64,000 bases of DNA from the NCBI GenBank assembly GCA_017506865.1, contig JAFCMP010000528.1:372001-436000 (forward strand), written 5' to 3'. The translations under genes were made by a program, and so were the position numbers. Shown here in pieces: positions 32,274-64,000 of the stretch. Source of the stretch: Tribonema minus (lineage: Eukaryota; Sar; Xanthophyceae; Tribonematales; Tribonemataceae). The notes beneath the pieces are model-generated. The model was not told the origin of the DNA, did not search any database, and saw nothing but the letters and a program-made list of their open reading frames with translations. Position 1 is the first letter of the stretch, and each line of letters begins with the position of its first letter.

Positions 32274-32639
32274 GCTGTACCTCTCTCAACGCGCTCCATG
32301 CACTGGCGCTGCAGCGTTTCCAGCGGCAGCCGCAGGAAAACCAACTCGATGGTCATCTGTGTGTCGTCGAAGTATACAAGTATACAGTTGTTCCGTGCTG
32401 TGATTTGTGCAGGGCAGAGTGATTGCTGAGCAGTGCTGCACTGCCAATACCGGCAGCATGTTCAGCAGCAGACCATGCCGACACCTTGATAGATTTGCCT
32501 GAGGGGCTCAGAAGCGGTGAAGGGTACACTTACACGCCGAGCACTGATGACGAGACATGACAAGCGTCAGTCCAGAAACTCGCAAGGTGCGCCCTAATAG
32601 AGAGTTGCCTGCGTGCTCGCGCTCGCGGCTTCCCTCTGC

Positions 32640-35120
32640 CTTTGCGCGTAGGCCCCACAGCAGCTGCAACTGGGGTGCACTGGTCGACTTGCCGTGACGC
32701 CGAACATCAACGCTCAGGGGCCGTCAGTGCTCTGCAGCGATGCTGTTTGCTGGTCGACTTGCAGTGGTGCCGATCATCAGCGCGCAAGGGCCGTCAGTGC
32801 TCAGCTGTGATGCTGTAGCACGCGTGATGCTGTAGCGCGTGTAATGCGGTAGCGCATGTGCCTGCCTCATGACAACAGCAAGCTACCGCGTTTGACTTCG
32901 CTACCCCTGGCCCTGGCCCTAATTAGGGCGTGCTCTTGCCTGACCAACGTTTGTGGTGAGCTTGGCAATAGTCTTCTCGGCCGCGTCGCATGCTGCTTTG
33001 CCTACTGTGCACTCCGCAATGCCACATTCAGCCCTCCCTTGGCTCTGGCCAAATGCCATGATGCTGAATTCCCCACTCCACAGCAAGTTCCGCCTCGTAC
33101 TACACCACGGAGCCCCTCAATCCTGTTACTGTCTGATGAGCGCTGTTGTAGTTGCCTGAGCCATGTCAGCCTTTTGTCTCAAAGTACAGCAGCCCTAACC
33201 TTAACCCTACTTAGCGCGCTTGCCTGAGCAATGTCAGTGGTGAGCTCTGTGATGGCCTCCTCAGCCGCGTCGTGCACTGTCTTCGCCGCCCACTTCTCCT
33301 GTGCAGCGTGCACGCCTGGTATGGAATGGCCGCATTGTCCGTGCTTGGACTCGCTCCGCTGCGCGTCGCGTGAGATTAATTCATGGATGAATACAGGTCA
33401 GTCATGAATGAACGCAGATGGCGAAATAATGCTGAGTCGTGCTGCGTGTGCTCGCGCTCATAGATCTCAAGATGAATTCATGAATACGAACCATTCATGC
33501 ATGAATGTGGACAGCAAATGGACGCTGAGTTGTGCTGCGTGTGCTCGCGCTGCAAGCTCTCTTGCGCGCTACGCGTGAGATGAGCTAAGTACATAAAATA
33601 CCATTCATGGATGAACGCCGATGGCGATTGAAAGCTGAATAGTGCTGCATGCGCTCGCAGTTGCAGCCCTTCTGCACGTGAGATGAATCCACTATTCAAT
33701 ACGAACAACCATACATGAACACGAACGGCAGATCAGCGTCAAGTCAAGCCAAGTTCATGAATGGGATCAACCATTCGTGAATGATGACTAACTGTAACCA
33801 ACGACTGAACGGCGGGCAATGCTGCATGTACGCCCGCTTGCAGCACTCCTGCATGCGGCACATGGCTGTGAGTCTATGATGGCAATAGCTGATGTATGAG
33901 TTGCAGTCATTAATGAACCTGCATGCTGTGCCTGCCGTCAGCCTGAGAGAAGCTCAAGTGCGGTTGAGTAGCAGTGAAGGCATATATGCACATGTGCGCT
34001 GAGCACTGATGACAGGGCATGGCAAGCGTGCTCACGCCCGCAGTTTCCCCCTACTCTTGTTTGAAGGCGCCACACCTGCGCCGACTGGACTTGATCAGTG
34101 TCTTGCTGGGACATCATCAGTGCTCAGGCGCCATCAGTGCTCAGCAGCGATGCTGTAGCAAGTGTGATGCTGTAACGCGTGTGTCTGACCCATGACAGCG
34201 GCAACCTGTAGCCCTGAACTACGCGACCCCTGGCCCAAACCCTAGTTAGCGCATGCTCTCGCCTGAGCAGTGTCAGCGGTGAGCTTGGCGACGGACAGTG
34301 TCATCGGACGCGTTGCGCGCTGCCTGATTCGCGTACTTCTTCTCCGCGCCAGGCATATGGACTGGCCGTGCTGCTGGTGCTGGTGCTCGTCGCTCTCCTG
34401 CGTGGCACGCATGAAATTAATTCATGGATGAGGATGGATCATTCACAAATGAATAGAGACGGCCAATGAATGCTAAGTCGTGGCGAATGAATGCTAAGTC
34501 GTACTGCATGTGCTCGCGCTCATGGCTCTTCTGCGCATTAGCGCAGGCGATGGGTTCATGAATACGGACCATGGTAAAGGATTGACGGGCTGAAATTCGC
34601 AATTACTGGGTGAGCCATGATGTGTGTGCTCATGCTTGTAGCTCTCCTGCATGCTTGCACGTGAGATGAATCCATTATGGCGACGGCGACTCATGATGAG
34701 ATGAATATATTATGGTAGCGGCGACACATGAGATGAATTCATGCATGAACCTGCATGCTGTTGGCTGCAGGTTCGTGACCCAGTCATTCTGGAGCCCACG
34801 ATATTTCACCGAGACCAAGCCAGACCGGGAATCTTTCAGAATCACCGCTGTGGTGTGGTCCTGACAGCCTGATGCATGAAGTCAGGCTACAGGCAGTACA
34901 GGCAGCCTGAGAGAAGCGCCTGAGAAGGTTGATTATATGCAGTGAAGGCGTGCACACGTGTGTTGAGCACTGATAACTGGCAAATGCGCTCCCATGGCTG
35001 CCCCCCCCTTTCGCGCCAAGGTTCAACACAGCGGCAACAATAGAATTTGACGGTCGCCTTGCAGCGACGCCTGTCACCAGCGCTCAAGCGACGTCAGTGC
35101 TCAGCATTGATGCTGTGGTA
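32640..35120. repeat. Higher-order repeat block with degenerate minisatellite
   Basis: Two related blocks (about 32640-33900 and 34080-34770) and a third fragment (about 35040-35120) share the same order of modules. First comes a module with CGTCAGTGCTCAGC and GATGCTGTAGC, then one with CCCTGGCCC, then units of roughly 90-120 bp. Those units contain TTCATGGATGAA, AATGCTGAGTCGTGCTGC and TGTGCTCGCGCTC. The copies have diverged by many substitutions. I find no gene in it. Confidence 0.7.
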
Positions 35121-44085: not shown

Positions 44086-47000
44086 ATGAATATACCACCA
44101 AAATGCAAGCCCATGGTGCCCTTCGTGCGGAGAGCGGAGGAGCTCGACAGGGACGACAGTGGACTGGAGACGAAGGTCGTCGCCTACTATTGCAGATTGC
44201 ACGCTGCGGAGGTCGGGCTGGGCTTGCCGGACAAAGGACCGGAGGAGGAGCAGTGCATCATGGCCTTAGTCATGAGGCTGGAAGACGACAAGAAGGTCTT
44301 GCCGCAGGAAGCCTTGGACAATGCTCAGGTACGGGCCGTTGGTAGTGACACCTCCCGGCAGATTGAACGCTCACAACAAAAGCCAATAACGAAACCAGCA
44401 GTGTAACTTCCTGGTGCTGATGTCGCGTTGGATCTATTATCTCTCTCTAGGGCTCCTTGCTGCCCGCCTGCTCAAAAACAGTTATGTCGATGGAGCTTTT
44501 GGTGTGAGGCGTTACTGCTTACGTGAAACACCTTTTGGTCACACTTCATTCGAGCATGCAAGTTTGCAGCAACAATGGAAGCTGCAATCAATGATCACAC
44601 TAGGATGTATGCCTCATCTGGTTTGGAATCTGCAAAGCAGGTCACCAAAAAAACAAATATATATATGTCAACTTGCAGGAACAAATTGGGGCAGGCTGGC
44701 TGTGCCTTCTCAGCTGCATCATGATTTATTGCAGATCATGAAACGTACAATGATGGCAAGACTCACGGCAACTGCCAATCATCGATTGCTGCTGTATTTG
44801 TAGCCTTGGGTCAGCGCTTGACATGTCAAGATAGTGTGGAAGCAGGGGCATGCCTCGATCGAAATTAATTTTTCCCACCGTTAAACAAACTTGCGTCATG
44901 GCAGCAGCGCGTTGCGTGCGCAATGGAACGCCTTACCGTGACACTGCGGGCTGCGGTCAAAGCCCCCGCCCGTCATGAGGACAGAAGGTTACAGTACGAA
45001 AAGTATCTCCCCCATGCTGTATGAACGTGCCAGCACGCATGATACCGCTCAGATCCGTGTAGTCTGTGCTGGTGATGGAGCTTCCGTTTTGCGGCCCACT
45101 GTGAGGGCAGGGAGCACAGTCAACTGTGCGCTGAGCAAGCAGTGAAAGAGCAAAACTGCGCCACAACTGCAGTCTTGCTGGGTAGAAGTGTATGTGGTGC
45201 TGTTTTCTCGAGCACTGTCCGGTTGGCAGGTATGCACATCACAGGCTTGTAGTTGGACAAGCCGACACCATTGCGGTGATTCATGGTGCTGAATCGAGTC
45301 ATCCCACTTTGAACTTGTGGTCGCAAAGTACATCAGGGAGCGCGTGAAGCACGCGCATTGGCCAACGCGCCTTCACTTGATGTCTGACTTCGTGCATCAG
45401 AACCACTCCCACTACGGCCACAGCCTCAGATAGTCTTTGACACAAGTTTGAACACGGCCTTGCACACAGTCACTCCAACTCTTAAGAATCAAAACTACAC
45501 ACGCCAGAGACAGCACCAATTAGGTAGATGATGCCTCCATCCCATATCAGCCCTGATGTGAGCTGTGTGCCCACCACTCAAAACTAAGATTGCTGCACTA
45601 TAACTTGCTTCGTTGCCCAGAGCTGACATTGCCACCTATACGTGCCGTTGAGCTTTCAAGTGGTGTGCAGGCTGATGACTGCAGTCGATTGTCGCTTAGC
45701 AGGGTTGGCAGGCCACTCTGCTGAAACCTTGGTTTTGTTGTGCCGACGCCACCAAGAAGTCTTTTTGTTTTGCTGACGCCACTAACAAAACCAACGTTGT
45801 GTTCGTCTAGTGGAATTGTCAACTTCAACTTGATTTGTGTCGGACAAGTGTGCAGGCGCTGCATGACCTGCTTCTGCCCCCCTCCCTGTCACCGTGCGTC
45901 AATTATCGTGGTGCAGGCACTTTGCGCTGGACGTGTTCTAGCGCGTGGACAACGATGACAGGGCAGCGACATCAGCAATTATGTAGAGCTACCTACCTGC
46001 CACTGATCATTTCTCACTGTGCTCCGCGGTTGTCAGCGCGTGCCAGCTGACGCCATGGTTGCGGTGCATGGTGGTGGCGCCAGCAGCAGTCTGCGTGACA
46101 TCATCAACGACATATATGATGACGTCACCTACGACACATACATACCTGCCTGCCGCTGATGTATACCTACCCTTGTCGTACCTGCCCAAAGCAATTATGC
46201 AGGCAGTTTGCCCTGGATGTGTTCCAGCGCACGGACGATGACATCATCATCAACGATGTAAACCTACATACCTGCTGCTGATGTATACCTACCCTTGTCA
46301 TAACCGCCCGCAGTCGACGTGCAGGCAGTTCGCACTGGAAGTGTTCCAGCGAATCAATGACATAATTAATCATGTATACCTACTTACCTGCTGCTGATGC
46401 CTACCCTGTTGTAACCGCCCACAGCAAACGTGCAGGCAGTTCGCACTGGACGTGTTTCAGCGCGCAGACGACGAGGACAGAGCGGGACTTGCGGACAACA
46501 GCACCGCGAAGGCGTTCCACGCCGCGGGCGTGTTCTTTGACATCCTGGCGCAGTTCCGGAAGGTTCCGCTGGACGAGGAGTGCCTTGTAAAAAAGAAGTA
46601 CGCCAAGGCCAAGGTGCGCAAATGTGTTTCTGGACCGAAATTGGGCGTCCCTCTTCAAGAAGGTGTATGCCAAGGCTGAGGCGTATGTGTGTGCTAGTTT
46701 GCGGCGGAGTTCTCTTTTCTCGCTGTTGCACTTTCTGAAGCTGCAACAAATTTCTGAAGCTGCAACAACGCTGTTTGTACCCGGGCTTTGCTGAATTTGC
46801 TAAAGTTCAATGGACTTATGCAACAGGCAGCATTTGCATCATTCGGTAAGTATGCTGATGCCAAGTATACACAAAGTACTTGCTTGAAGTACCTATCACG
46901 AATGGGTCTGCTGACGCTAAAAACTGTAGCGCATAAATGCTGGGTGTTGTCAATGACACACACACACCGCTGCAAACAACACCAGCAACAACCGCTCGTG

Positions 47001-50000
47001 TTGAGTCGATGTTTCTGTACTTTGAGTTGAGAAGTACGCACACACTGTAGTTGTTGACATGGGCAGTCTCATTACACCGACATTCGTTTCTCAGGAGCAC
47101 ATGCCGCACTAAAGCAGCGCCACTTCTGACCAAGCTGCACCTGCTTGCACTTGCCCCTGACACCTGCAGGCTATGGACATCCTGAAGGCATTGAGATCGG
47201 GGCGCACACCAACGCCAGGACCTGTTGGGCAGGCGGTCAGTAAATGCACTTGAAGTCTACAGTAGTTAGGTTTGATTCCAGAGAGTGCCGAGAGGACTGG
47301 TGGAGGACTGACTGGACGGCCAGTGAGCACCCACACGTGGAGGCTGGAGTTGAAGTAGGAGTTGGGCGGTTGCTTCAACGGTGACGTGTCTGTAAGCTTT
47401 GCTTTGCCATGTGCTTTACGGGCAGCACTGGCCATGCTGTGAATTAGCACGATCTTGTCGTTGACACGCCTCGAATTCGAGCCTGCGTTGCATCGTTTTG
47501 GCGATAGATCAACCCTGACCTCAATTCAGCTATGAGGACCGTATCAACCGACGTAATGCATGCCAACAAGGTGACTGCAGAAGTGCGCCTCTCCTGTTTG
47601 CTCGGCGGGCACAACCATTGTTGCTCGACCAGCGCTAGCGCGGCTGCTCTGTCTTCATCTTCAAGTGCATCACCTTTCAGACCCAATGTGCACTTTTCTT
47701 GATGTTGAATTTGAATCACATGCCATTTTGGAAAGTAGGATCAGAGCAGGGACGGTGCTTCTTGCGTCACGCAGTCAGCACCGTGTTCCTGCACCCTGTC
47801 TCTGCCGGCACAACCAGCGCGCCGAAGTGCCACATGCTGCTCACACTCCTCTCTCTTTTGCGCCAGCCTTCGCTCCAATCTCCCCAGCTCTCACCTCCAT
47901 CTAAACTTGAACATTCAAAACATCAACTTCAACTTCAACATTGCCAATGACGCGCGTTTCAGGCCGACCAGGGCTCCACCGGCTCCGCGCCGCCGAACCT
48001 CTTGGGCGGCAGCGAAGCGAGTGCCCCTCCCGCCTTTGCAGCGGCAGGTGCGGCGCTGGCCGACTCCGTCAACTACAACATTGTAAATAAATGACAAACT
48101 TCAACTTTGAAACCCTCAACCTTCAACTTCAACATTGCTCATGACGCGCGCAGGCCGACCAGAGCTCCACCGGCTCCGCGCCCCCGAGCCTCATGGGCAG
48201 CAGCGAAGCGAGCGCCCCCCCCGGCTTTGCAGCCGCAGGCGGCGCGGCGCTGGCCGACTCCGCCCCCGCAGCGCCCCCCCAGACGTCGTTTTACGGTGAA
48301 ACTGTGGACACGGGGTCAGGCGCCATGTCGTCGTACCCAGCGAGCGCCAGCATCAGCGCCGAGCAGAACGAGGGTAAGCAGCAGCAGCCGTCGCCGTATG
48401 TGGACATGGCCGCGGCGCAGCCCAGCCCGCAGCCGCAGAGACACGGTGAGAGCATAGTATGGTAGTTTTGTGTTTGAAAACGAATCGAAAGATCGTAGAG
48501 CTCTAGGCGACAAGGGGTGGTCAGCCGGAAGTGCGCTCCACCACTAACCGTGGTCATTGATTATACTCCGGAGTTGTGTGCTTTGAAGCATGCACATGCA
48601 CATGGTGCACAGATTCGTGTCACACCTTCAAGTACGTCCAATGATGTCATGTGTTCATTGCGCACACCCTTTGGTTCTGAGGCAGCACACGGCAATCGTC
48701 ATTCAAGATTTACACTTCAACGTATCTGGCCGCAGCAAGGGCGCATGCCACGTTTGCATGGTTCGCTCCCTGCCACCACCATGCCCATACAGCACACACA
48801 ATCCTGCACACATGACCATTGATGGCTAGGGCAAATGTGTAATGCGAACGTATCTGCTGCGCATGCCCTGTTTTGCCGGTCGTGACTGGTGCGTCGTGGT
48901 GCCGAGACGCTGTTATGTTTCCTATTCAGTGCTGATGCTGTAGCTTACTTCCTGGAACCAACACCCAATATCTCTTCCACTACAGGTGACGAATTGTCGC
49001 TATGCGATGAAAGATCACACATCACTTGAACCTGTGCATGCTGTCATTGAACTTCAAACCTCACTTGAACTCTGCATGCTCCTTGAACTTCAACTTGCAG
49101 TGGCACCCACCGCACCGTCGCCTGCATATAGCGCCAGCGGCAGCACCAACGCCGGCAGCAGGAGCGGGGGCAGCGCGGCTGCGGTAAAAGCCAACGCCAT
49201 TGCCGATGCAACAGAGTACGCCAAGTGAGTGGTCATGTAGCTGTCGCCGCTCCAGCAAGTCTTTCTGCCGATTGTAATGATGCACATGCGCGTGGGCCCT
49301 TCATTTTTGGCGAGCGTGTTGGATGATGTTTGTCGTTTCAGACCTTAGCAGCTGCTCACACCTCAACAACTGCCGCAACGTTTGACATTTTATATTGACT
49401 TGCCTGCAGCAACAAGCACCCCGTGCATTGCCTATTGGCTTTTGGTGTTGCGGTCATGCAGCGCCATTGTGTTGGCATTGCCTATTGGCTTTTGGTGTTG
49501 TAGTCATGCAGCGCCATTGTGTTGATGTTGCGTCCAAGCATTTTGACACCGAGCGTGAAGGTATCGGGAGCGTTGTGGTAGAGTGAAAGGCGCAAGCTAG
49601 CCTCACGTGCAGCGCCAGCGTGATGACTGTGAGAAGCGCGCATTTAGCATCAACATCGTTAGCGCCGTGCTCCTCATGTGTGCCTGCGGAGGGGTGATGG
49701 GACATCAATCTGCCCCAAGTCCTTTGTGTTTCCGGTTTCAAACTTCAGTATCCTGCTTGTCCTCTGTTACAAAGGCTACTTGCGTCATACTGCAGCTTTG
49801 AGTGCTTCAGCCAAACTCGTCGCCTCAGCAACAGTATGCGCCATGACGTGCTGTGAGACCATGTGCTCATTTGGTTTGACGCTCGTTGTCACCGGAATTC
49901 TGTGTGTGCCTGCTACACGCATTGGACCCTCAACACTTCCAGGGCTCTAATTTATCCCTCACACGCACACGTTTGCGCTAAGTCTGCTGTGATGATGTCA

Positions 50001-50226
50001 GGGAACATGCGTTCCCAGGCTCACTCAATATTCCTGTAAACCTGGTTGGCTTAACCTCCAAGCTTTGCACCATGCGCTCCCTCACTACGCTGGCCTTGAC
50101 GGTTTTCACAATATCTTTCGACTTGCACCACGCGTTGCATGCAGGTTTGCAATCGCCGCGCTCGAGCACAAGGACATGAACCTGGCGCGGCAACGCCTGC
50201 AAGCGGCCCTGGACTGCTTGAGATGA
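44086..50226 (+). CDS. VTA1: VTA1/LIP5 homologue, Vps4 cofactor in ESCRT pathway
   Basis: The exons are 44086-44328, 46425-46613, 47170-47235, 48154-48445, 49101-49224 and 50145-50226, with an optional in-phase exon at 47963-48082. The product is 331 or 371 residues. The N-terminal MIT-like domain shows KPMVPFVRRAEELDRDDSG, VVAYYCRLHAAEVGL and QFALDVFQRADDEDRAG. The conserved KALRSGRTPTPGPVG follows at about 148-162. A long Ala/Ser/Pro linker precedes the C-terminal VSL helix pair (FAIAALEHKDMNLARQRLQAALDCLR, split here only by description). Relatives activate the AAA ATPase Vps4 to disassemble ESCRT-III on endosomes. The first intron (2.1 kb) carries three extra copies of the exon-2 edge. 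Confidence 0.93.
45914..46480 (+). repeat. Four-copy tandem array of the VTA1 exon-2 edge
   Basis: Units of about 115-120 bp (the first more distant) each contain TACCTGCTGCTGATG-like intron sequence, a CAG, and a copy of GCAGTTCGCACTGGACGTGT with the next 25 or so bases of exon 2. Copies start at about 45918, 46201, 46323 and 46433; the last is the real exon. In the second and third copies the exon-like part is followed by GTAAAC or GTATAC. Confidence 0.85.
47890..48270 (+). repeat. Tandem duplication of a whole VTA1 exon with its 3' splice site
   Basis: 47963-48082 and the first 110 bases of 48154-48445 are close copies, both preceded by CTTCAACTTCAACATTGC and GACGCGCG, then CAG. Both begin GCCGACCAG and are in phase 0. 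The first ends in a fresh sequence (NYNI) followed by GTAAAT and is exactly 120 nt, so including it would not shift the frame. Confidence 0.85.
49422..49526 (+). repeat. 50-bp tandem duplication in last VTA1 intron
   Basis: Two adjacent copies contain CATTGCCTATTGGCTTTTGG and CATGCAGCGCCATTGTGTTG. Each copy contains a CATGCAG, the same string that forms the 3' splice site of the last exon. Confidence 0.85.
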
Positions 50227-50879
50227 TGACGCTATGGGCGGTTGCAAGAGCGCTACGGGCGCAGGGTTTTGCGCGCGCTGTCAACTTCAACTTAAGGCGT
50301 GCTTGCGGAGCCTTCAGCAGTGCTCAGCAATGCTCCGCAGGCTCATTCTGCGCAGCGCACGCAGCGCGTGTGAGGATGGGATGCATGTCGCTAGAGCGGC
50401 AGCATGCATGTGTAGTTGGCAGCACTACACAGGGCCCAGTGCGCAACGGCATGTATATCCGCTGTGCAGCAGTGTCATTGGGTCGCACGCACAGGTGGTG
50501 GGTGCGTGTTGATTTCAGCAGGGTGTGTGACAGCGTGTTGTGCGTTTTTCCTAAATAATGAGTCACCTAAATCCCCCCTATGGAGTGTGAGTGAGTGTCA
50601 ATCCTTCGTGTCTTGTACCTTTGCTTGCGCCTGGATCATTGCAAAAGCACAACGGAGAAGGTGCATTGCACGTGCGAGGCTACACCTGCCAATGCAGTAA
50701 TGCAGAATGAGTTGCGTCCATTTTGTGTTTGCTGAAATGGCGGCACACAGCAGCATGTGCATCACCTAGTGTCACAACAACACTTGCATGCGACAGATTC
50801 TATCCAGAAAAGAATGGGCATCCGCTGCTTGACATGGGTGGTTATAAAAATCACAATCATGTGTGATTTAAAAGATGTG
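50227..50879. other. Gap between convergent genes VTA1 and methyltransferase
   Basis: This 653-bp stretch must hold both 3' UTRs. No further exon or strong structure was seen. Confidence 0.5.
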
Positions 50880-53800
50880 TCAGCTAGAAGGCTCCACTGA
50901 TTCTACTTGCTCTTCCACAGACTGAGGCTGTGGTTGTGCGCCTTTCTTGCCCTTCTTGTTTGCTTTACTCTGCCGTCGCCCCGCTCTATTGCCATCCCCC
51001 CCCTCTTGTGGCGGCACTTGTCGAGTCGTCTTGGTGGACACTGCGACCGTATACGGTCGGAACAGGTTGCTCACAATGTTGACCTCGGTCTCGCCCACCG
51101 ACTTTTGGAGCTCTTGAATCTGGCGAGGGGCAACCATGGGGGCGAGGGAGGTGTGAGAGGTTACACAAAACACTACTGTCACAAGTAGTTTTAAACAAGC
51201 ACGCAAGCAAGCTCTCTGTGTACACAAACATTTATGCCTCCTGTGACTATCTATGTATATGTTGTGTTCTGAGTCAACTTGTAAAGATAGACTGTAGGCC
51301 TGCTATGGTAAGGAGTGATCAAGAGCCTCAGGAGCTACACACTTTCAGCAACATTCCATGAGAGTCTATTGTTCAATTAATGCTTCGTGACCAGGCGGGG
51401 TCCAGTGAGAAAATTGAAAAAATCAACAGCACTCAGAGTGAGACTCGTCACGCACACTCAGACTCACCAGCAAGTCGTTGCTGCCCCCCTGCTCCACAAA
51501 AATCAGCTGCCCCCCTGGCTTGAGCACGCGTGTGACCTCCTTGATGAGCCGCTTGGTGTTAGTGCTGCCATTGAAGCCCCTGCGTCAGCGCAAAAGACCA
51601 GTTGAGGCGCAATGTAAAGGTGGCATGCGGTGGCTTCGCATGTGAGAAACGTGTGTCACGACTCAAACTGGGCTTGCCACTGCGTCACTTCATGTGCGGA
51701 GCCTTTCCAAACCAGCAGCCGTGCTCAGTCAATATATTGGGGGGCTGCTCAAGTTCGTCGGCACGAGCCGACTAGAAATCCCAATGCAACAAGCTAATAC
51801 AATCTGGTTTTGACTGGGCAATTTTGGGGTTGCTGCCCGGCTGCTTCCTGAACTCGCAGGTATTGTGGCCAACATCAAGAGCATACTTCAATAATCACTT
51901 CAACAAATCATAGCGGACACCAAGAGCAATGCTTCAACAATAACTTCAACAAATAAGTTGATGATGGACACATATCCCAGTGAGACGACGGCGTTCATGA
52001 TGCCGGTAGGGCAATCCAGGATATTGTCCAGCTGCTTCACTTCAACATTTACTTCAACAAACCAGTTGATAGCATACATACCCCAGTGAGATGACGGCGT
52101 CCATGATGCCGGTAGGGCAGTCCAGGGTGTCGTCCAGTTGCTTCCGCACGCTCACCACCGGCACGCGTGCCTGCACCGCCGCTGCGTCCGCCAAGTCCTG
52201 TGCGTGTGACAGCGACAGCAGTGGCAATGCTCATGATGCGGTTCAAACTCGATTTGCACGTCACTTCACAAAGTGGGGTGGCGCATGGTAAGCGTGCGCT
52301 GACGGGTGCCCTGCTGCTGCCACATCTGCCATATTCTGCATGCAGTTGCAATAGCAATGGCAATGTGCATAATGACAGACATGAGACAGATGCACCTCAA
52401 ATAAGTTGAAGCGTGACACGGCACAAGTATAGGTGATGGCTATGGCTGGCATGGCTGCCTGCACTGCTGCCGTGTCAGTCCAGTTCTGCAGGACAAGTAG
52501 CTCCATGCCTGAAACGGGCGATATGCGCTTGAGGACATACATTCAGCGTGTGGTCATATGTACTTAGTGGCGATGTGGGGGGCGGGGTGTGGCGTGCAAG
52601 CTTTGCATGCTACATCCAAGAGTGAGAACAAGGCGACACACCTACAACATGGCATTCCACAGCCACAAGTGGAATATAATAAAAGTACTTAGTGGAATGC
52701 TACTAAAGTGACGATGTACATCAAAGCGCTTGGTCAGAAAGGCGAAGTATGAAGATGCGCAACCTCCACATGGACACACACGGGCACGCTCCTAATGTTT
52801 GTCGAAGCACAAGTGGAAAGCTCAGGGTTTTCCTTCACGTGTCATCAAACTCGGCAACCTTGCAAGATGTATGTTAAATGCAACGTGCCACGCCCCTGCG
52901 GTCGTCGCCATGACGACTCGACTTCGGGATGACGGCAAGTCACGAGTGAGTCACAAGTCAGTGAGTCTTCACGGTCGATCATCCCAAGACACCGTGCGGA
53001 ATAGACTGAATTAAGATGCAGCACCTGTGCACGCCAAGCAAGCTTGGCAAGCGCGCGCTCACTGACTGACGTGTGCTCAGTGTTCGGGAAGTTGCTCTTT
53101 GCAGTTTATGCCTGCAAATGTGCAGCAGTGCTCACCTGTTTGAGGTCCGTGATGGTGGACAGGATCACTCTCCGCGCACCCCCTGATGGCAGATAGTACA
53201 AAGCCTGCGCGCAAACCGATTATTGTCACGAGCGTTCAGAAGAAAAGTTGAAGTTGACCGAGCGTGTCGCAAGCGTTTACAAGAAGTTGAAGTAGCCAAG
53301 TGACATGACCCCTAAGCAGCGCATGCAGCATGCCCACCGCCGTCGATTGACAGGAGGACAATTTTTGTGTCCTGCCACCCTTGACTGCACATGTTACGGC
53401 CCACATGCCTGGCACTCGTTGGCCACGGCCGCATGCAGCATGCCCACCGCCGTCGATTGACAGGAGGACAATTTTTGTGTCCTGCCACCCTTGACTCCAA
53501 GCGTTTGAGCCACTTCAACAAAGCGTGTTATTCTGAAGCATCAGAACTAGTTTGTGCAGGATGTGTCGAAGCAAGTTGTGACACTCCTGCAACTGGCGCC
53601 AGAGGGTCAGCACAGGTACTTCTAATGGTGTTACCCCGTAAGTAAGACATGCACCCGGGACAGGTTTACTATGCATCGATCTTTGTGCTAGAAAAAAACT
53701 TGAAGTGACCACCGCGATGCTTGGAACCTAAATGCAGAGCAGCGAGCCAAGCCCCGTGACTCACAGATAACTGCTGTCTACTGCAAGCGTGGCCAGGAAT

Positions 53801-56191
53801 GAAATGGCATATAGTCTTGCTGTGAATATGCACAGCACCAGCCAATTGTTGCAGTGCGCCGTTCATAAAGACGGCACTCGGCGCAGTGCTTTTTGCCTTG
53901 CTGGCCTTGACAGATGGGCGATCCACGCATGCAAGATGCACTGTTTCTCACAAACTCCGCTTTTGTCTGCTTCAAGAGGTCATCTGAACCGTCGTGTGTA
54001 ATCCTGCTATGCATATGCATAGGCTAGTAGCAGCCATCTGCAGCAACGAGCCCTCCACAAGGACAGTCGGCGCTGCCTTACCTTGCTGTCATTGGCAGAG
54101 AGGTTTACTTTTGTCTGCTGCAAGGCGTGGCCAGGAATGAAATGGCAGATAGTCTTGCTGTGAATATGCATAGTACTGTAGCAGCCAATTGTTGCAGCGC
54201 GCTCTCCACCAACAAGTACAGTATTCAGCGCAGCGCTTGCCTTGCTATCCTTGGCAGAGAGCTGCAGCACGTCCGCGCCTCCCGCCACGCGCGGCACCCT
54301 TCGCGTCAGCAGCGCGGCAGTCTGTGGCGAGAAACAGCACAGGTCTGGCAGAGTAAGTTGGCTACTGCTTCAGATAGGGCAAATGAGGTTGTACATTAGC
54401 TGGAAGTGCCGCTTGAATAAGGGGTTGGCAAATTAAAAAGGTTTCAGGGTGTGTGCTGGACACGTGTGCCGCTGCTGGTGTTGCGTAGAGGTGCTCTTCA
54501 AAGGCAGTTCGCAAGTGCTTGGCGCTCCCAAGTCGAGACTCTCAAGTTGCGAGTGTGGTTGTTATGTGGCGCTGTGCGGATACTTGCTGGAGCATGCATA
54601 CAGCGGTTGCAAGCTCACTGCCTTGCACGCTTGACGGTTACGGCAGTTGCACTTGCCTGTACACGGACCACAATGCATTCACTTCCATCAGCACACGACT
54701 GGCGTCGGTCTGCTGTTGTATTGGTCCCCTATATGTCTACCTCTGTCGGTGTGGAGCAACAGGGTAGTGAGCAGCAGCTCTCTACATTTGTAACAAGATT
54801 GCTGCACATGTTGGCGCATACACTGAGCTGTATTGCATGTGTTTGTAGACAATGTCATCGAATGTTGCCAGCCTCGGTGCCATGATACAACTGGTGCTGC
54901 ACTCTCCGGTACCTCCAGCGCTTCTATGGTTTCATACCAACAATATGTCTAGCAACGACTGTACTTCAAAGACACATTACTGTACAACATCAGCAGGTAC
55001 ACTGGCTACTATACCCTTCCTCAATAAGCTTCAAGGCTTCCACTACCGCCCCATACACGGAAATCATCAGTGATATCCTTCATCAGCAATGTCCAGACTC
55101 AAGACATGCTGCGCATGTCAGTGCATGATAAGAGCGCAGGTGGTGCCAAGTACGTTGCCGGAACTTGTATCACGGCTCTAGCAGTGGAAGTCAATCATCA
55201 CGAATGCTGGGAAGGCTATCGCTGCTGCAGCCGTACATGCACTCACAATGTATTGCATACGCCAGTACACTATGGCGTTGAAAGCGGCCAGCCCCACAGC
55301 AGTTCCCAGCAGCGCAGCCACCGTCACCGTGTTTCCATCCGCAAAGTTCACGCCAGACTGCGCACAGAAGTACAGAGCGCCAACATGCAGCACATGCAAG
55401 GGAAAACCAGTCCATCAGTATGGTGCCTCGGTCAGCACGGCATCAGCGGGGTCACTGCAGAGTGGACATGGCAACCCCGATGGCACAGCTAAGTAGAGAG
55501 CGACCACCAACGTGTTGCAGGGACCGTTCAAAAGTGACAGTAGGTCAGGCGATGCAGGCGCAGAAATGACGAGGCCAGGGTGTCAAGCTGCGCAAGAGCT
55601 GCAATTGCGACAGGAACACAGGTGCTGCCCTCTGGTTCAAAGAGTCACATGCCACAGGTGCAGTAGTGGCCAGACAAGAGCCGCACCAGAGTGGCCATGC
55701 TCATTGCAGATTCCGCCAGTCCTTTTCAAAGGTACAACCTCTGCACCACAAGCTGGCATACCGAAAATGAACACAGGCGAAACACATTCACATTTGACAT
55801 TCATTGAAGTTGCAGTGGCTCGACAGCACCCTGCTGGGACAGTGACCTGACACAGCTTCAGATTAGGCTTTAGCTAACCTTTGCAACGTTGTATCGCCGT
55901 GCTCGCAAGGCGTACACAGCAGAGATGAAACATGAAAGAAACATGAAACTTCAAGTTGGTCGCGTGGGTCACCTGTGCAATGCTGTCTGCCGCGTTGTAG
56001 ACCTGATCGTCAGCTGCAATATCTGCTGGAAATGCCGAGGCTTGCAACGCCGACTCCCTCCATCCCGCTGCTGCGCTTGACCGATGCGCTCTGCCACATT
56101 GAGTGAACACATGCTGAGTGCGCGCCGTGAAGGCTCCGACCAGCGCCGTAGGAGCGAGCAGGACGAGCTGCGCCAGCCCGTGCAATCGCAT
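50880..56191 (-). CDS. Membrane-linked class I SAM-dependent methyltransferase
   Basis: Seven exons on the minus strand (56191-55973, 55357-55247, 54321-54241, 53204-53136, 52197-52082, 51579-51468, 51119-50880) are all in phase and give 315 residues. The N-terminus (MRLHGLAQLVLLAPTALVGA) looks like a signal or transit peptide. A membrane segment follows at about 84-105 (TVTVAALLGTAVGLAAFNAI). Motif I is probably ADVLQLSAKDSKALYYLPSG, without the common GxGxG. The strand-4 region is CPTGIMDAVISLGGFNG, and the clearest match is RVLKPGGQLIFVEQ at about 216-229, typical of type-11/UbiE-like enzymes. A basic, Gln-rich tail (NKKGKKGAQPQPQ) ends the protein. The substrate is unknown. The third intron begins with GC. 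Exon edges are duplicated in two introns. Confidence 0.8.
51955..52165 (-). repeat. Tandem duplication of the 3' edge of methyltransferase exon 5
   Basis: 52070-52160 and about 51965-52035 both contain CCCAGTGAGA, GACGGCGT and CATGATGCCGGTAGGGCA, that is, the coding end of exon 5 and its GTATGT-type donor. The copy at the left lies inside the intron and could compete as a donor. Confidence 0.8.
52425..52500 (-). pseudogene. Diverged copy of the 5' part of methyltransferase exon 5
   Basis: On the minus strand the frame QNWTDTAAVQAAMPAIAIT resembles QDLADAAAVQARVPVVSV at the start of the true exon and is preceded by a CAG. It is older than the neighbouring duplications and sits in the upstream intron. 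Confidence 0.5.
53316..53495. repeat. Tandem duplication in methyltransferase intron
   Basis: Two copies of about 65 bp (GCATGCAGCATGCCCACCGC through CCTGCCACCCTTGACT) are separated by about 48 bp. No exon edge is involved. Confidence 0.85.
53775..54275 (-). repeat. Triplicated edge of methyltransferase exon 3
   Basis: Three related units (about 53778-53910, 53990-54120, 54120-54275) share TGGCCAGGAATGAAATGGCA or relatives, GTGAATATGCA, and an end related to CTTGGCAGAGAG. In the rightmost unit that end is the coding edge of exon 3. On the minus strand the real copy reads LSAKDSK before GC, and the middle copy reads LSANDSK before GTAAGG. Confidence 0.8.
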
Positions 56192-56261
56192 GATGCCCCC
56201 TGCAGATGCCAGCCAGCCTTGCTGACGGCGCAGCAGTGGCCTCGTGTGATCGAGGCCTGAA

Positions 56262-56300
56262 TGCCCCCCCCCCCCCAGGGGGGCCCCAGCGCACCCCCCC
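56262..56300. repeat. Poly-C tract near methyltransferase start
   Basis: About 16 C, then GGGGGGCCCC and CACCCCCCCC, lie 70-110 bp upstream of the start codon. This may be part of the promoter or leader. Confidence 0.75.
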
Positions 56301-57230
56301 CAAAGCCTGGCCCACATTGAGAATGCCAGGAGCTGCTCGAAGGGCTTGCACCCCCCCCAGGTTCGAACACCTCCTTCACTGTCGCAAACACTCTCAGCGG
56401 TGTGCGTTTTGCAAGCACCAAACCATTTGTGTGTTCTGGGCGGCAGCTTCGACCTCCAACTACTTGCACTGCTGGGCTACCAATCTCTGAAACAACAGCT
56501 TGAGCGCTCGTCAGGAGCAAAGCTAAAGAGATGCATAGACCCACCAAAGAGCCTGCTGCAGCAGCAGGCATGAGGAGCGACAGGCAGTGCACAGTGCATC
56601 ATGTCAACTATATATATGGCGTGATTCATCGACATGAGTGCCAGTGGGGACACAGTAGCAGCTTCGTGAAGAACGCACTGAACCTGTCAAACAGACACAC
56701 TCTGAGCTGAATGCTCCAGGTGCAGGCAGGCTTGTGGCGCAAATGCAAAAAAAGAACTGGGCATCCACCGCCCAGCCAATGTAACAGTTGTGGTGTACAT
56801 TATACAGTGGAGGATGTGGTGATGACCAGCAAAGACTGCTTTACGGTCGGGCATGCTCAGCAGCTCACTACATGGCACACAAGCGCTACGTGAGTGAGGG
56901 ATCACAGCATGCTTCAGCACAGGCATCAGGTGGAGCGTGGTTGTCACACAAGGCGGCACGCTGCGCGGCAGACATGCTTTGTACCCATGCCCCTTGTGCT
57001 ATACCTGGCATCAGGCTGACACCTGGTTCAATATGCACGTGCAGAAGCGGCCGTCGCTGGTATTGTGCGCGAGGTTTATAGCCTGCTGCATTGCCAGACA
57101 ACGCAACAGCGACAGACATTAGTGCAGGACCCTGCCCCGGCTTCGCCGCACTCGCCACAGACAGGCGGGGGGCGTGTAGACAAGCACAGCCCACGCCATA
57201 CATACCCCTTCATACACACAGCAGCACCGC

Positions 57231-60200
57231 TCAGCACGTAGGGTAGGTACCGACGACGCGGTACCCCTTCTTCTCAAACCGCGCCGCCCAGTCGTTCATC
57301 ACGCCGACCTCCGCGAGGCTCAGATCCGCAATGCTCGGATTGTCCAGGTTTTCCGCGTCGAACGACATCTTTGCAAGCGCCCTCGATGCGTCGCGCCCCA
57401 CAAATAAATTGTACGGGCAGCCCTTGCCGTAGTGCGGCGCGCCGCCGTACGATACGTCAAAGACCTTGCCCGCGACGGCGACGAGCATGGGCGCTGCGGC
57501 CGCGCCGTCGGGGATGGGGCCTTCGCCCGTGCCCGCCGCCAGTTGCTCCTGAGGCGTGCCGCAAGGGAAGGGGAGGGTGGTGATGATCAGCAGTGAGGAT
57601 GGGCCGGAGCACTGGCGTAGCGCTCTGACGGTGCTCCATCAGGAGAAGCGCTGTGCCGGGGCGTCGTCTGTTTGTTTTGCACATGTGTGTACACCAGTGC
57701 TACACTGACGACGGTTGCACCGGCGGCAGCGTGTGTGATATGCCTGAGGTTTTGCCCCTGGACTTGAGCCAAGGCTGACTGTACGTGACCACATGCACCT
57801 CAAGTCATTGACGCGATCATGAACCATGACCTCACTATAATACGCAGGCAGCAATGCCAGTACCGCTGCCGTGACACCACCGCCCACCACGTGGTATAAT
57901 AAAGCTGCTGCGCCCCAGGCCAACGAGAGCACCACCACACAAGCGATCTGCACACCTTTGCGTACACGAGATACATCTATATATACTTTGACGTACGTCA
58001 TAGAAGTACATGTGTGCGCACCTTGGTGTACACCGGCAGCGGATCCGGCAGCGGCGCCGTCACAACGCGCCCCACCATCGGGTACCCCTTGTAGTCTCGG
58101 AACTGCTGTATCCAGCCGTCCAGGGTATCGCGTTCGCCGTGAGACAGCTCTTCCCAGGTCATCTTGTTCAGGTCGCTGGCGTCCAAGCTGTGCCGCGCAA
58201 GGCTTACCGACGCGTCGTGGCCTGCGCGCGTTGTGCATACATGAAGTCGTATTGATTGTACTGTAAGTCATATGTTCAATTGTAACCGCTGTTTCATGCG
58301 GGGTGTGCTTCACAGAGTCGTATTGGAAGTCAAGTATTCATTGCAAGCGCTGTTTCATTCAGGCTGTGCCGCGCAAGGCTTACCGATGCGTCGTGGCCTG
58401 CGCGTATTTGCACATACATGATGGAAACCAATCAAAAAATAATATCGGATATTCATTGTACACATTGTACTGAAGTCAGTCATTTTTATTGCCGTTTTGT
58501 TCAGGCTGTGCCGCGCGAGACTGACCGACGCGTCGTGGCCTGTGCGCGTTGCGTATACATGAAGTCGTATTGATTGTACTGTAAGTCTTACTTTCAGTGT
58601 AAGCGCTGCTTTATTCAGGCTGTGCCGCGCGAGGCTCATGGACGCGTCGTGGCCTGTGCGCGTTGTGCATACATCAAGTCATATTGATTGTAGGTCACAG
58701 AAGTGTACATGTTCATCATAATTGGTGTTCTATTCAGGCCGGGCCGCGCAAGACTCACAGACGTGACTGTGCTACAAGCGCACGTCGCTGGGGTGCCACT
58801 AGCGTTACGAGTAGGTATATGTATCAAATGGGCGAGTGGCTGAGCGCTGCCCTGCTCCTTGTCAGCGTTTATTAACACATGAAGTTGGGTGCAAACAGAG
58901 TATATATCACTACGAACCTGCGAAAATGTGGTAGTTCCCCTCCTTCCCGTACGCGTGCCGCGCCTGGCTGACGTCGAACACCTCGCCCCGCAGCGCCACG
59001 TATATGGGGACGTCCTCGTCGTCCTCTCCCTTTGCGTTCACGCCTGTGAACGCCTGCGAGCACACATTTGAAGTACTAACTGAACTCTCAACAAGTAGTG
59101 ATCATTGCACTCTGGTGTCAGTGACGTGAGCAAACAGCTCTTGATTAGAAGCTCGGTTTGGTTACTGTCACTGCGAACCATACGGGCAGACGTTAGTCAC
59201 GTGGCGCAACATGTAACACCCCCGCCATCAGTGGTGCTGCATAGAAGTTTGCACCAATGTAGGAGACCTCATACCCTATGAGCATGTCTCAACTGCCCTC
59301 ACGATGTGCAATCACGCCGGGGAGGACCTGCATGGACAGATCTGACACAAACACAGCCTGTGCAAGAACCTCGTACACGTCATCTTGAACTTCAAGTGTT
59401 GGCAAGCGAGGTCTATTGCCTTCTACCAAGCGCACAAAACCGCATTATGTCTGTGCTCGTAGTCTTATTGCCACTGTGCCGCCACGAGCATGCGGCACGC
59501 ACATCAACACGCTCACGTTGTGAGGCGCACGTGCTGCACACGCGCAATGACAGCGACAGCGCCTTCGCGCATGTTCCAGTGCAGACAGCCGAGACGCTTT
59601 TGGCTCCTCCTGTCCCAGCAATCGCCGGCAGTTGAAGATCACAACGACGTGAGCCAGTGCGCACAAACACGAATTCTGTCGCAACACGCACGCACATACA
59701 GGCGCCATTTGACCACCTTCACTGTGGTACAAACTTCAAGCCGTGTTCTGGTCAGAAACAAGCGCTCCATGATGGTTTCGAAGTGTACCAGCCACGTTTG
59801 ACTCGTGGCCAAGTGCCGCAGCAGCGGCGACCACGGTGATTGGTGGAAGGCATTTGCGACAAACCACACCTTGTCACCGAGAGCTCTACTACATCTTTTG
59901 ATTCTTTACCATGCACAATGCGCACCTTGAGTTGCTCCAACGTAAAATTCCGCAGCGGCTCCGGCTCCCTGTCGGCCTTCGCAGCAGCGGCAGTTACATC
60001 CCCCTGACGCGCCCCCCCCAGCCTCATGAGCAGGCGCAGCACGGCAGCGCCCAGCACCACCGCCGCAAACACTTGCACCGGCAGGCTCGCATTGGCGCTC
60101 TGCGCGAGCGCCGCCTTCGCCTGCGTGCAAAATTTATGATGAGTCACAACAGTCATGGTGAGTCGCGTCATATGTATGCGATTGGTTGTAGAGGCTCGTT

Positions 60201-61099: not shown

Positions 61100-64000
61100 C
61101 AATTTCCGATCAAACAGGCGAAGGGGAGCACACGGGCGGGCAAAGTGCAGTCAAGCGCTCTAGAACAGGTCGTAACTGTTACAGTCTGGAACAGCAACGT
61201 CTGATGCTAGACGACGAAGCTGGAGGTGGAGGCAGTGCGGAACCCGGAGTACAAGTGCAACTTATGCGACCTCGTGGTGAAGAAGGGCATGTCGCTGCTC
61301 TCGTTACAGCAGAGGTTAAACGCCCACATCGCGGCGAAGCACCAGCGCGAACACCACAGTGGGACAGCAACAACGTTCCTGGAGCGCTCCAACCTCAGCA
61401 CCTCGCACTTGCAAACCATCTACACCGAGTGTGCCTAAGGCTTGTGCAAAAACCGGTTTCATGCCAACAAGACATTCAGGGTGGACAGCAGCGATCCCAG
61501 TGCGGGCAAGCGCTGCCGCAACTGCAGGCCTATCACTTCACCCGCTGCAGTGGCGGCAGCATTGTCAACAACAGCATCAGCAGCACCCGGTCCGCTAGCA
61601 CCTGATGCATCGACGGCAACAGCTACCACGTCGCTGCCACAGCAGCAACCGGCGTGCACACCCATCGGCAACCCCTACGCAGAGGGACTAGCGCACGCGC
61701 AGCAGGCACCTGCTGCTCAGGCTGGTGGCAGCAGCTCCTCCGGCAGCTCAACGAGGCCGGAACGCGGGGGCAGCAGTGCTACACGAGGGGGTCGGGGTCG
61801 CAGTGGAGGGCGCGGACGTGGCAATGGAGGACGCGTTCGCAGCGGCAGCAACGATGCAGACATCAGCAGTAGCAGAGCGACTAGCGGCAGCAGAACCGGA
61901 GGCGGCAGCGGCAGCGGTGCCGGCGGCGGCAGTGCAGCCGGTACTAAGGACAGCGGCGCTGGCAACGGCCGCAGCAGTGATGCCAGCAGCCGCAGCGGCG
62001 GTGCTAGCAACAGCGGCAGTGGCGCACGAATTCAAAACGGCCGCGGCGGCTGTGGCAGCGGTTGCAGCAGCGACAGCGGTGGACGAGGCTGTGGTCGTGG
62101 CGGCCGCGGCGGCGGCGGAGGGGGCCCCCGAGCGGCAGGTGCGGCGACAGCAGCGGCAGCGCCTGCAGGCGCAGCAGGTGGGGCAGGTGGGCTTTTCACG
62201 TGGACCATTTCAACCCCCGCAGTCGCAGCAGTGCTTGACAGCATCAGCCTCGATGAGCTGTGCAAGCTGCAGTTCGCGACAACTAGAAGCCTTGCTAGAC
62301 CACGCAATCGCCGCTATGTGGGAGCTGCACTGGAGAACGCAGCAACACATCTGTTGGCACACACAATGACGATGTTCGTCAATGCGGCGCGGGAGCCAGA
62401 TTCCGCAGGCCCTGGGCGGGTGCAGCGACTGCAAAGATCCACGATTCCACACCACCTCATGCCATCACTCATCACCTCCACCGATGGCGCACCTGGCATC
62501 ACTCGCTCCGACAGAATCAGAATGTTGGCACGCGGTGAGCTTGACCGGTTGGTGCCAGCGCTCCTCGCACACGCGCGTGCGCACCGGCGCTGGCGCGCGC
62601 GCCAGCAAACGGAGGCAGCGATCAACGCCTACGTCCTACAGTGCATGGGCACACGGGGGGGGCTACAGCAGGCAGCGCGTTTCCTTCAGCCCAAAACGGT
62701 GGCGATACCTGATGATGACTGCTTTGCCGCCATGCAGTCCAAACACCCCCCCGCTGCGCCAGGGGAACAACTCCATGAGCTATCCGGCATGGTTGATCAG
62801 CTTGTGGCGAAAGCAGCCGACATGCCAGCAGAACTCAGCCTGTTACAGGGGGAGGGACTTGAGCCAGAGACGGTTGCCAAGCTCATCCAGCGAGCAAGCC
62901 CTTACAGTGGAGCAGGCCCATCGGGGCTGCGCTACAGCCACCTGCAGGATGCGCTACGCACAAGCTGGGGACGGCATGAGTTTGCTGCTGTCCTCACACG
63001 GTGGCTTCAGACCGTTATGCGGGAGGCTGCGCGGCTGCCGGATGCCTTCTGGCAGTTGCATGGCGCGGGGCGCCTGACGCCACTTGCAGAACAACAGGAA
63101 GATGGTACAGCTAAGCAGCGGCCCATCGTTTGCGGCGAGGTGCTGCAGCGACTATGCACTTCGGTGTACGTGGCAGACCGCAAAGACTTCCTGGCGGAGC
63201 TCCTTGAGCCAGACGGGCAGTATGGGGTAGCCGTCTCAGCAGGAGCGGAGAAAGCGGCCATGGCCGGCAAACTCGCGTATGAGCTTGGTCACTGGCAGTT
63301 CATGCTGGACCTCAAGAATGCCTTCAACATGGTGTTCGTCCTGGCGGCAGCGGAATGGGAAGCAGCACAGCTGCCGGACTTCCTCGACTCCTTCATCGGC
63401 ACATACGTTCGCACTCGGCCACGCCTGCTGTTCCAGCACGTCGACGGCTCCACGCGCATCATCATGTCTCAGCGCGGGTTTAAGCAGGGGACCCCGCGGC
63501 ACCGATGCTCTTCTGCGGCGCCATTGCTCAGTGCTTGAAACGGTTCAACGAGGCGGCGGCCGCGCAGCGCGCGCGGAGGCGGATGGGCGCCTACATGGAC
63601 GATGCCAACGTCCGAACAGGCGCTTGCACGCTGACTCAGGATGACATACAGGCGGTGGCGCAGCTCAAACAACACTTTGCGGAGGTGGGGCTGGAGCTAA
63701 ACCTCACCAAGTCACACGCGCTGCCTGGCAGGGGGCATGTGGTGACAGACCACGAGCGGCAACTGCTGCAGCAGCTGGGCGTTCAGCTAGTGGGGGATAC
63801 GGATGAAAATCAGAACCGCGGAGCTGTGTTGCTGGGGGTGCCGGTGGGCCACAGCAGCTTTGTGGACGCATGGCTGCGCAGGGAAGCGGGTGCAGGCGGG
63901 GCAGGGGCTCGATTTGCAGAGCGATGCGCGCGCCTGACATCTCCGAGGGCTATGTTCAGGTTACTGCGCTACTGCGTGGTGCCTCGCATGACGTACTGCC
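61100..64000 (+). mobile_element. Reverse-transcriptase retroelement, probably non-LTR, running out of window
   Basis: Coding sequence on the plus strand shows, in order: a zinc-finger-like segment (61250-61350, EYKCNLCDLVVKK then AHIAAKHQREH), a second Cys cluster (RCRNC), a long Gly/Ser/Arg low-complexity stretch (61720-62160), and a reverse transcriptase. RT landmarks are GPSGLRYSHLQDAL, KQRPIVCGEVLQRL, FMLDLKNAFNMV (motif A), GFKQG (motif B) and AYMDDANV (motif C), then LNLTKSHALPG. N-terminal zinc fingers plus this RT style recall R2/NeSL-like non-LTR elements, but no endonuclease or terminal repeat is in the window, so the class stays open. The frame looks broken about twice, so it is a relic, though the RT region is well preserved and probably not very old. 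Confidence 0.75.

Follow-up and report, generated by a model that had tools for sequence, protein, structure and literature searches.

The stretch of DNA analyzed here (64,000 nucleotides, hereafter the window) lies on contig C525 of a genome of 158 Mb in 554 contigs, and carries three neighboring genes in which exon borders have been copied into the adjoining introns. Pfam searches with hand-joined exons identified these genes as VTA1 (Vta1, 4e-32), a methyltransferase (Methyltransf_11, 1e-6) and a cytochrome-b5/MAPR protein (Cyt-b5, 2e-16, in two matched stretches). An earlier reading of the letters alone (the sequence-only reading) had proposed five border-spanning tandem arrays in these genes. 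All five were real, each consisting of diverged local copies of an exon end and its splice region, although their extents and copy numbers needed correction, as described below. The arrays in the window were detected by Tandem Repeats Finder, self-BLAST, an ungapped lag scan and gapped alignment of the edge units, and the results agreed. A dinucleotide-preserving shuffle, performed once for each of 23 sources (the window and 22 loci), gave zero pairs at the lag-scan threshold. The gene models are the predictions of a small home-made hidden Markov gene finder, which was trained on the window and part of the sampled loci.

Border arrays in three neighboring genes

Alignments showed that the repeated unit was made up of an exon end, its splice site and adjacent intron, and that the copies were local and head-to-tail. 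In each of the five arrays the complete exon was found at one end, with partial copies, which we call decoys, inside the intron. This is the geometry that duplication over an exon edge demands. The ten gapped-aligned decoys in the window were 74–90% identical to the real copy, and because they are no more alike than this, assembly stutter is an unlikely source of them.

VTA1 lies on the forward strand. Its exon 1 (44086–44328) is an open frame within the Pfam Vta1 match, the start codon having been read from the sequence. Exon 2 (46440–46613), which starts FALDVFQ and is supported by Pfam and the gene finder, is the real copy of an acceptor-side array; its border was placed by hand at 46440, and the gene finder set it at 46425. 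Three decoys of this acceptor were aligned, the first (45911–45964, by self-BLAST and alignment) having GCAC in place of the GCAG that precedes the real exon, and the other two (46138–46241 and 46246–46351) being resolved by gapped alignment. The four copies originally proposed for this exon are, therefore, present. Exon 4 (48154–48445; open frame and gene finder) had been described as duplicated whole. Two copies do exist, but the decoy (47903–48068; self-BLAST and alignment) covers the acceptor side only, with 58 bp of intron and 109 bp of the 292-bp exon at 86% identity. The gene finder called 47963–48082, in this copy, as a 120-bp in-frame exon. One VTA1 decoy contained an in-frame stop.

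The methyltransferase and MAPR genes are on the reverse strand. The methyltransferase exon termed exon 3 (52082–52197; Pfam and gene finder) is the real copy of a donor-side array, and gapped alignment revealed a decoy of its donor region at 51932–52036 that is 84% identical and in which the donor GT has become AT. This array has two clear copies rather than the three proposed, as the third is at most an intronic scrap at 51883–51908. The exon termed exon 5 (54241–54321, with a GC donor) lies outside the Pfam-scanned protein, and the gene finder is the sole evidence linking it with the methyltransferase; a version of the program forced to GT donors ended the exon about 20 bases further (~54220). 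Its donor-side array was undercounted at two copies, since gapped alignment identified decoys at both 53999–54102 (with GT) and 53793–53914 (with GC), making three with the real exon. The real donor (54236–54245) reads AAG/GCAAGC and one decoy reads AAG/GTAAGG, with the frame open across both, and the site is an in-frame candidate alternative donor. In the MAPR/cytochrome-b5-like gene, the exon at 58022–58221 (Pfam and gene finder) is the real copy of an acceptor-side array with three gapped-aligned decoys, all of which kept the AG (58360–58421, 58499–58596 and 58616–58692). A weaker fifth copy was detected by the lag scan at 58712–58763 (lag 375, score 24), in agreement with the five copies proposed.

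The same three genes also carry tandem repeats off any border, at 46732–46768, 49015–49093, 49425–49531 and 53320–53499. The third of these is a 50-bp tandem repeat in a VTA1 intron, found by Tandem Repeats Finder. The fourth, found by self-BLAST and the lag scan, is an intronic 70-bp repeat with two copies 110 bp apart that are 98.6% alike, and in the final pipeline it was the sole border-free repeat there with a lag of at least 60 bp. Words resembling CTTCAACTTCAAC recur in introns near acceptors and in array units (47917–47945, 48112–48135, 49015–49093 and 51932–52070). Elsewhere in the window, 32611–35116 holds dense, old direct repeats with lags of 97–1415 bp, and the gene finder calls no exon there. 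A long open frame on the forward strand (61439–63538) was reverse transcriptase-like by eye; a 400-aa stretch of it had no Pfam match at 0.001.

Tandem arrays across the genome sample and at exon borders

The genome sample consisted of 24 stretches picked by place, totaling ~219 kb, of which L015 was half N. Eleven of the 49 predicted proteins were submitted as ten Pfam queries; nine matched, two of them just below Pfam's own cut-off, and one was without a match. Predicted introns had a median length of ~560 bp, and GC was 0.685 in exons and 0.579 in introns. Three virus-like stretches (L006, L022 and L009) were left out of the array counts, the simulation and the point test. The same analyses also left out the short or repeat-filled L015–L017 and the window duplicates L001, L018 and L019. 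L009 was dropped as virus-like on appearance only, and its two searched frames had no Pfam match. The other two appeared by eye to be endogenous and giant-virus-like: L006 (1–10000, contig C1) is intron-poor with a GC of 0.69 and an EsV-1-7 cysteine motif protein, and L022 (1–10000, contig C9) is intron-poor with a GC of 0.57 and has DEAD/ResIII helicase and helicase-associated domains.

Arrays across exon edges were found well beyond the window, including in Pfam-supported genes for a protein kinase (L005) and mitochondrial carriers (L025 and L026) and in the predicted lipase (L012) and HECT (L008) genes, which likewise count among those with Pfam support. Acceptor and donor sides were represented in similar number (13 and 9 cases), and edge arrays had two to seven copies. 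In total, 26 of 192 predicted intron ends, or about 1 in 7, had a copy inside their own intron, and ~15% of interior intron sequence lay inside detectable arrays. A histogram of tandem-array lags in the 23 sources had, besides short repeats, a second mode at 100–160 bp. The youngest clean case, in L011, spans a predicted donor and is contiguous and head-to-tail, with a lag of 265, 99.6% identity and a 3-bp junction overlap. Only two contiguous cases had at least 93% identity, L011 and one in L002 whose junction overlap was 1 bp. Array coverage varied between loci: L007 (0.6%) and L024 (1.8%), the loci with 6PGD and GAPDH genes, were almost array-free, and other loci were up to 46% covered. Comparably low coverage was also seen in L003 (2.0%), L026 (2.7%) and L023 (3.0%). 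Two arrays that were queried against the genome matched only their own place, in a search that scores the best candidates and skips common words, and these two therefore look local and not like a mobile family.

To compare these arrays with chance, exons were masked for detection, an array was counted as an edge case when it reached into an anchored exon by 15 bp or more, and the expectation was computed from each locus's own exon-intron map. With the window included, 50 arrays were intron-hosted and 22 of them qualified as edge cases, against an expected 8.8; a further 26 arrays without a host intron are outside this count. For units of 100–200 bp outside the window the count was 15/27 versus 5.6 expected (P = 4e-5), and the nine loci picked as Pfam-supported, one of which (L013) had no Pfam match of its own, gave 12/30 versus 4.9 (P = 0.001). 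Units of at least 200 bp were at an edge in 2/7 cases (1.5 expected), and repeats with lags below 60 bp tended to miss borders (1/37 versus 4.1). Simple two-copy arrays gave 11/28 versus 5.8 (P = 0.016). Arrays whose best pair was at least 85% alike gave 10/16 versus 3.3, and those less than 85% alike gave 8/28 versus 4.7 (P = 0.08), a split that is confounded because short masked segments pass the score only if they are very alike. In a point test corrected for copy number, the rate of duplication at intron ends was 2.2 times that at interior points (1.45–3.5 when loci were bootstrapped).

Plain coverage gave a different result. Among 80-bp windows at intron ends in all loci, 32/200 (16%) had a partner in the same intron, compared to 13.2% in the interior, and outside the window the values were 27/158 (17.1%) and 16.6%, with no excess. 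In a first coverage profile, values at the exon rim had been slightly elevated (0.21–0.25 versus ~0.17). As a calibration, random arrays were simulated and passed through the same pipeline, being inserted only at places that are currently array-free. An edge was called in 56 of 381 that were intron-hosted, and of the 286 non-edge arrays placed in introns, one was falsely called as an edge. The window itself had 4/6 arrays at an edge by the pipeline and 5/6 by hand, versus ~0.8 expected, and as it was chosen because of the pattern it is unfit as a test of excess.

We conclude that border matches are common by chance and yet occur about twofold above chance. The sequence-only reading went too far in treating hits on exon edges by random duplication as rare, as around one in five to seven intron-hosted arrays would be expected at an edge given units of 100–200 bp in introns with a median of ~560 bp. 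The count of borders against chance placement that it had suggested, performed here on the genome sample, gave the twofold excess by the per-array and point tests and none by plain coverage. We relied on the masked per-array test, the corrected point test and the subsets by locus and identity, with the simulation as calibration. Other counts were treated differently. Masked segments abutting exons (28/87 versus 2.4) were rejected because their excess is forced by the mask, under which the null can hardly abut. Two further counts were set aside, one with a 10-bp tolerance that undercounts edges (17/58 versus 11.9) and one with unlike coverages and the same undercount (26/324 edges, 8.0%, versus 11.1% of interior points). 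Ranked lower were counts that may overstate the excess through exonic similarity in detection and whole-locus placement (55/163 versus 42.5 for all lags and 32/65 versus 19.3 for lags of 100–200; with the same bias, 25/55 versus 8.7 for lags of 100–200), and one in which exonic overlaps were counted from 8 bp (26/58 versus 11.9). GC-driven hot spots were considered separately and rejected, there being no clear difference between interior arrays and their flanks (GC 0.556 versus 0.537, P = 0.2).

Copied exon tips and splice sites

Substitutions were analyzed in 26 of 28 edge cases, two having been skipped for short exonic overlap; six of the 28 had been added by hand, including one of those skipped. 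Mismatches in the exon tips fell at codon positions 1, 2 and 3 in the proportion 48:35:70, and dN/dS was 0.44. Divergence was 0.107 in the exonic parts and 0.162 in the intronic parts, a ratio of 0.66. By our own estimate, one constrained and one free copy would produce about 1:1:2, a dN/dS of 0.55 and a ratio of 0.63. The codon-position counts and dN/dS do not indicate coding constraint on both copies, with scarce indels (below) pointing the opposite way. That the copies are retained as decoy or alternative exons is, therefore, unsupported as a general rule: the exon ends change in a near-neutral manner, though with fewer indels than predicted.

Splice sites were surveyed in 66 decoys at 28 edges, of which 21 came from the pipeline, one (VTA1 exon 2) was re-placed and six were hand-picked, and 28/28 is not a rate. 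The acceptor AG was kept in 29 of 32 decoys; of 34 donor-side decoys, 21 kept the GT and 9 more read GC. Identity at the splice dinucleotide was 0.864, compared to 0.86–0.89 at exonic neighbors and 0.77–0.81 at intronic neighbors. The exonic part of the 66 decoys measured 15–90 bp (median 44.5), the exonic query being up to 90 bp. Judged from these alignments, the decoys are probably mostly relics that still resemble splice sites, and mild protection is possible. Whole-exon duplication, including mutually exclusive exons, was also considered and rejected, as exon tips only were copied; even the VTA1 exon 4 copy has 109 of 292 bp.

Origin of the arrays and known systems

The arrays, their geometry and their spread over the genome sample were observed directly, and we hypothesize, with a probability of roughly 0.6, that they derive from small, ordinary tandem duplications that were tolerated at borders and then decayed neutrally, with longer introns and decoy splice sites as the result. 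The genome would gain many small head-to-tail duplications of ~100–200 bp, which may originate in DNA break repair. A duplication straddling an exon edge would preserve a complete exon at one end of the array and add to the intron a further exon tip, a splice site and flanking intron. The spliceosome would likely skip the inner copy and use the outer site, so that the original exon is still joined. Border duplications would be tolerated because splicing can skip inner copies, and duplications inside exons would presumably be removed by selection. Through repeated events, arrays would form and introns would become longer, and the decoy splice sites left behind might now and then turn into new or alternative exons.

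Several observations weigh against this hypothesis. Blind duplication would not give a twofold excess at borders, and outside the window 18 of 44 intron-hosted arrays straddled an edge when 8.0 were expected (P = 2e-4). The corrected point test outside the window gave a 1.77-fold enrichment (95% 1.26–2.5), and P was at most 0.0064 when each of the five tested loci was left out in turn. The copied tips had 24 gap positions over 1425 exonic bp, and the intronic parts had 133 over 1819 bp; the ratio is 0.23, when ~0.5 was expected, and either constraint or the alignment method could be the cause. There were no stops in the 26 best decoys, when a few were expected, and the acceptor AG match alone (0.953) was above that of its neighbors, which could hint at use of decoys. 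Furthermore, the borders are predicted, and the gene finder recovered 5 of the 7 exons that a family search had identified in mitochondrial carriers.

The border excess could instead reflect a mutational process that is drawn to borders, through chromatin, R-loops or the base composition of exons, for instance, with selection only removing wholly exonic units. Both the outside-window counts and the 1.77- to 2.2-fold enrichment in the point tests favor such a process, as do the lack of an excess for lags below 60 bp and for units of at least 200 bp, the greater strength of the excess in arrays at least 85% alike and the higher GC of exons. The sequence-only reading had itself offered a border-targeting mechanism as one of two options, and the excess outside the window speaks for that claim, whereas the equal coverage of intron ends and interiors speaks against it. 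The rise at the exon rim was also only mild, interior arrays showed no clear GC enrichment over their flanks, and the values for simple two-copy arrays and for arrays less than 85% alike, together with the masking that confounds the identity split, argue the same way. We regard a border-directed process as conceivable but on balance improbable. The broader proposal that a duplication process with a unit of ~100–160 bp, near nucleosome size, prefers borders, is a main engine of intron growth and seeds new exons and introns is one that we consider doubtful.

Retention of the copies as alternative or decoy exons, with a role in splicing control or in protein diversity, would fit the many intact decoy AG and GT (or GC) dinucleotides, the reading of the VTA1 exon 4 copy as an in-frame exon, the scarcity of indels in exon tips and the few replacement changes in some cases (L013 8163, S 4 and N 0; MAPR, S 4 and N 1). 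The pooled dN/dS and codon-position pattern, however, fit neutral substitution, some exon tips carry indels (e.g., a one-base insertion in an L013 case), and one VTA1 decoy has a stop and one methyltransferase decoy has lost its GT, all of which make this explanation quite unlikely in our view. The least likely explanation is an artefact, in which copies were misassembled or the gene finder, biased toward repeats, set the borders there. The gene models are predicted and the gene finder sometimes takes decoys for exons; against this stand the divergence of the window decoys from their real copies, the exon tips in Pfam-supported genes and the single false edge in the simulation. Small ordinary duplications that are tolerated at borders remain the explanation that we prefer.

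These arrays can be compared with several known systems. In the potato RdRp gene, a tandem duplication across an intron-exon boundary produced a new intron that is spliced according to RNA reads (PMC4974935). The duplications described here likewise cross one intron-exon boundary and copy its splice signal, but they are known from DNA alone, have two to seven copies and are found in many genes of one genome. Tandem duplication is reviewed as a route of intron gain in PMC3443670, which cites Gao and Lynch 2009 and Hellsten 2011 and includes the Rogers model, in which an exonic segment with AGGT is duplicated. In both the Rogers model and our arrays, a small internal gene duplication creates extra splice sites. 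In our arrays, however, the unit already holds a border; intron gain of the Rogers type, from a wholly exonic segment with AGGT, is ruled out because the units extend into existing introns. CST-guided Pol alpha-primase makes small tandem duplications at induced DNA breaks (PMC8355091). The clean young case in L011 has similar contiguous head-to-tail copies, and perhaps the duplications here arise at DNA breaks in the same way, with this mechanism a candidate only. Introners insert copies into many genes and change introns genome-wide (PMC9860276). Introns are also altered across the present genome, but the two arrays queried match only themselves, and an introner or transposon origin was rejected on this basis.

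In a search of titles and abstract beginnings, we found no report of genome-wide, border-spanning tandem arrays. A genome with about 1 in 7 predicted intron ends copied would be a natural laboratory for intron lengthening and splice-site birth, and border-straddling copies may be a route of intron growth. In Chlamydomonas and related algae, long introns are described as being without an agreed cause (PMC8226300); duplications of borders and introns would be a candidate cause of such introns if the present host is a related alga, and the style of its genes suggests that it may be a green alga. Isolated duplications of this kind over an intron border are already known; here they occur in many genes of one genome.

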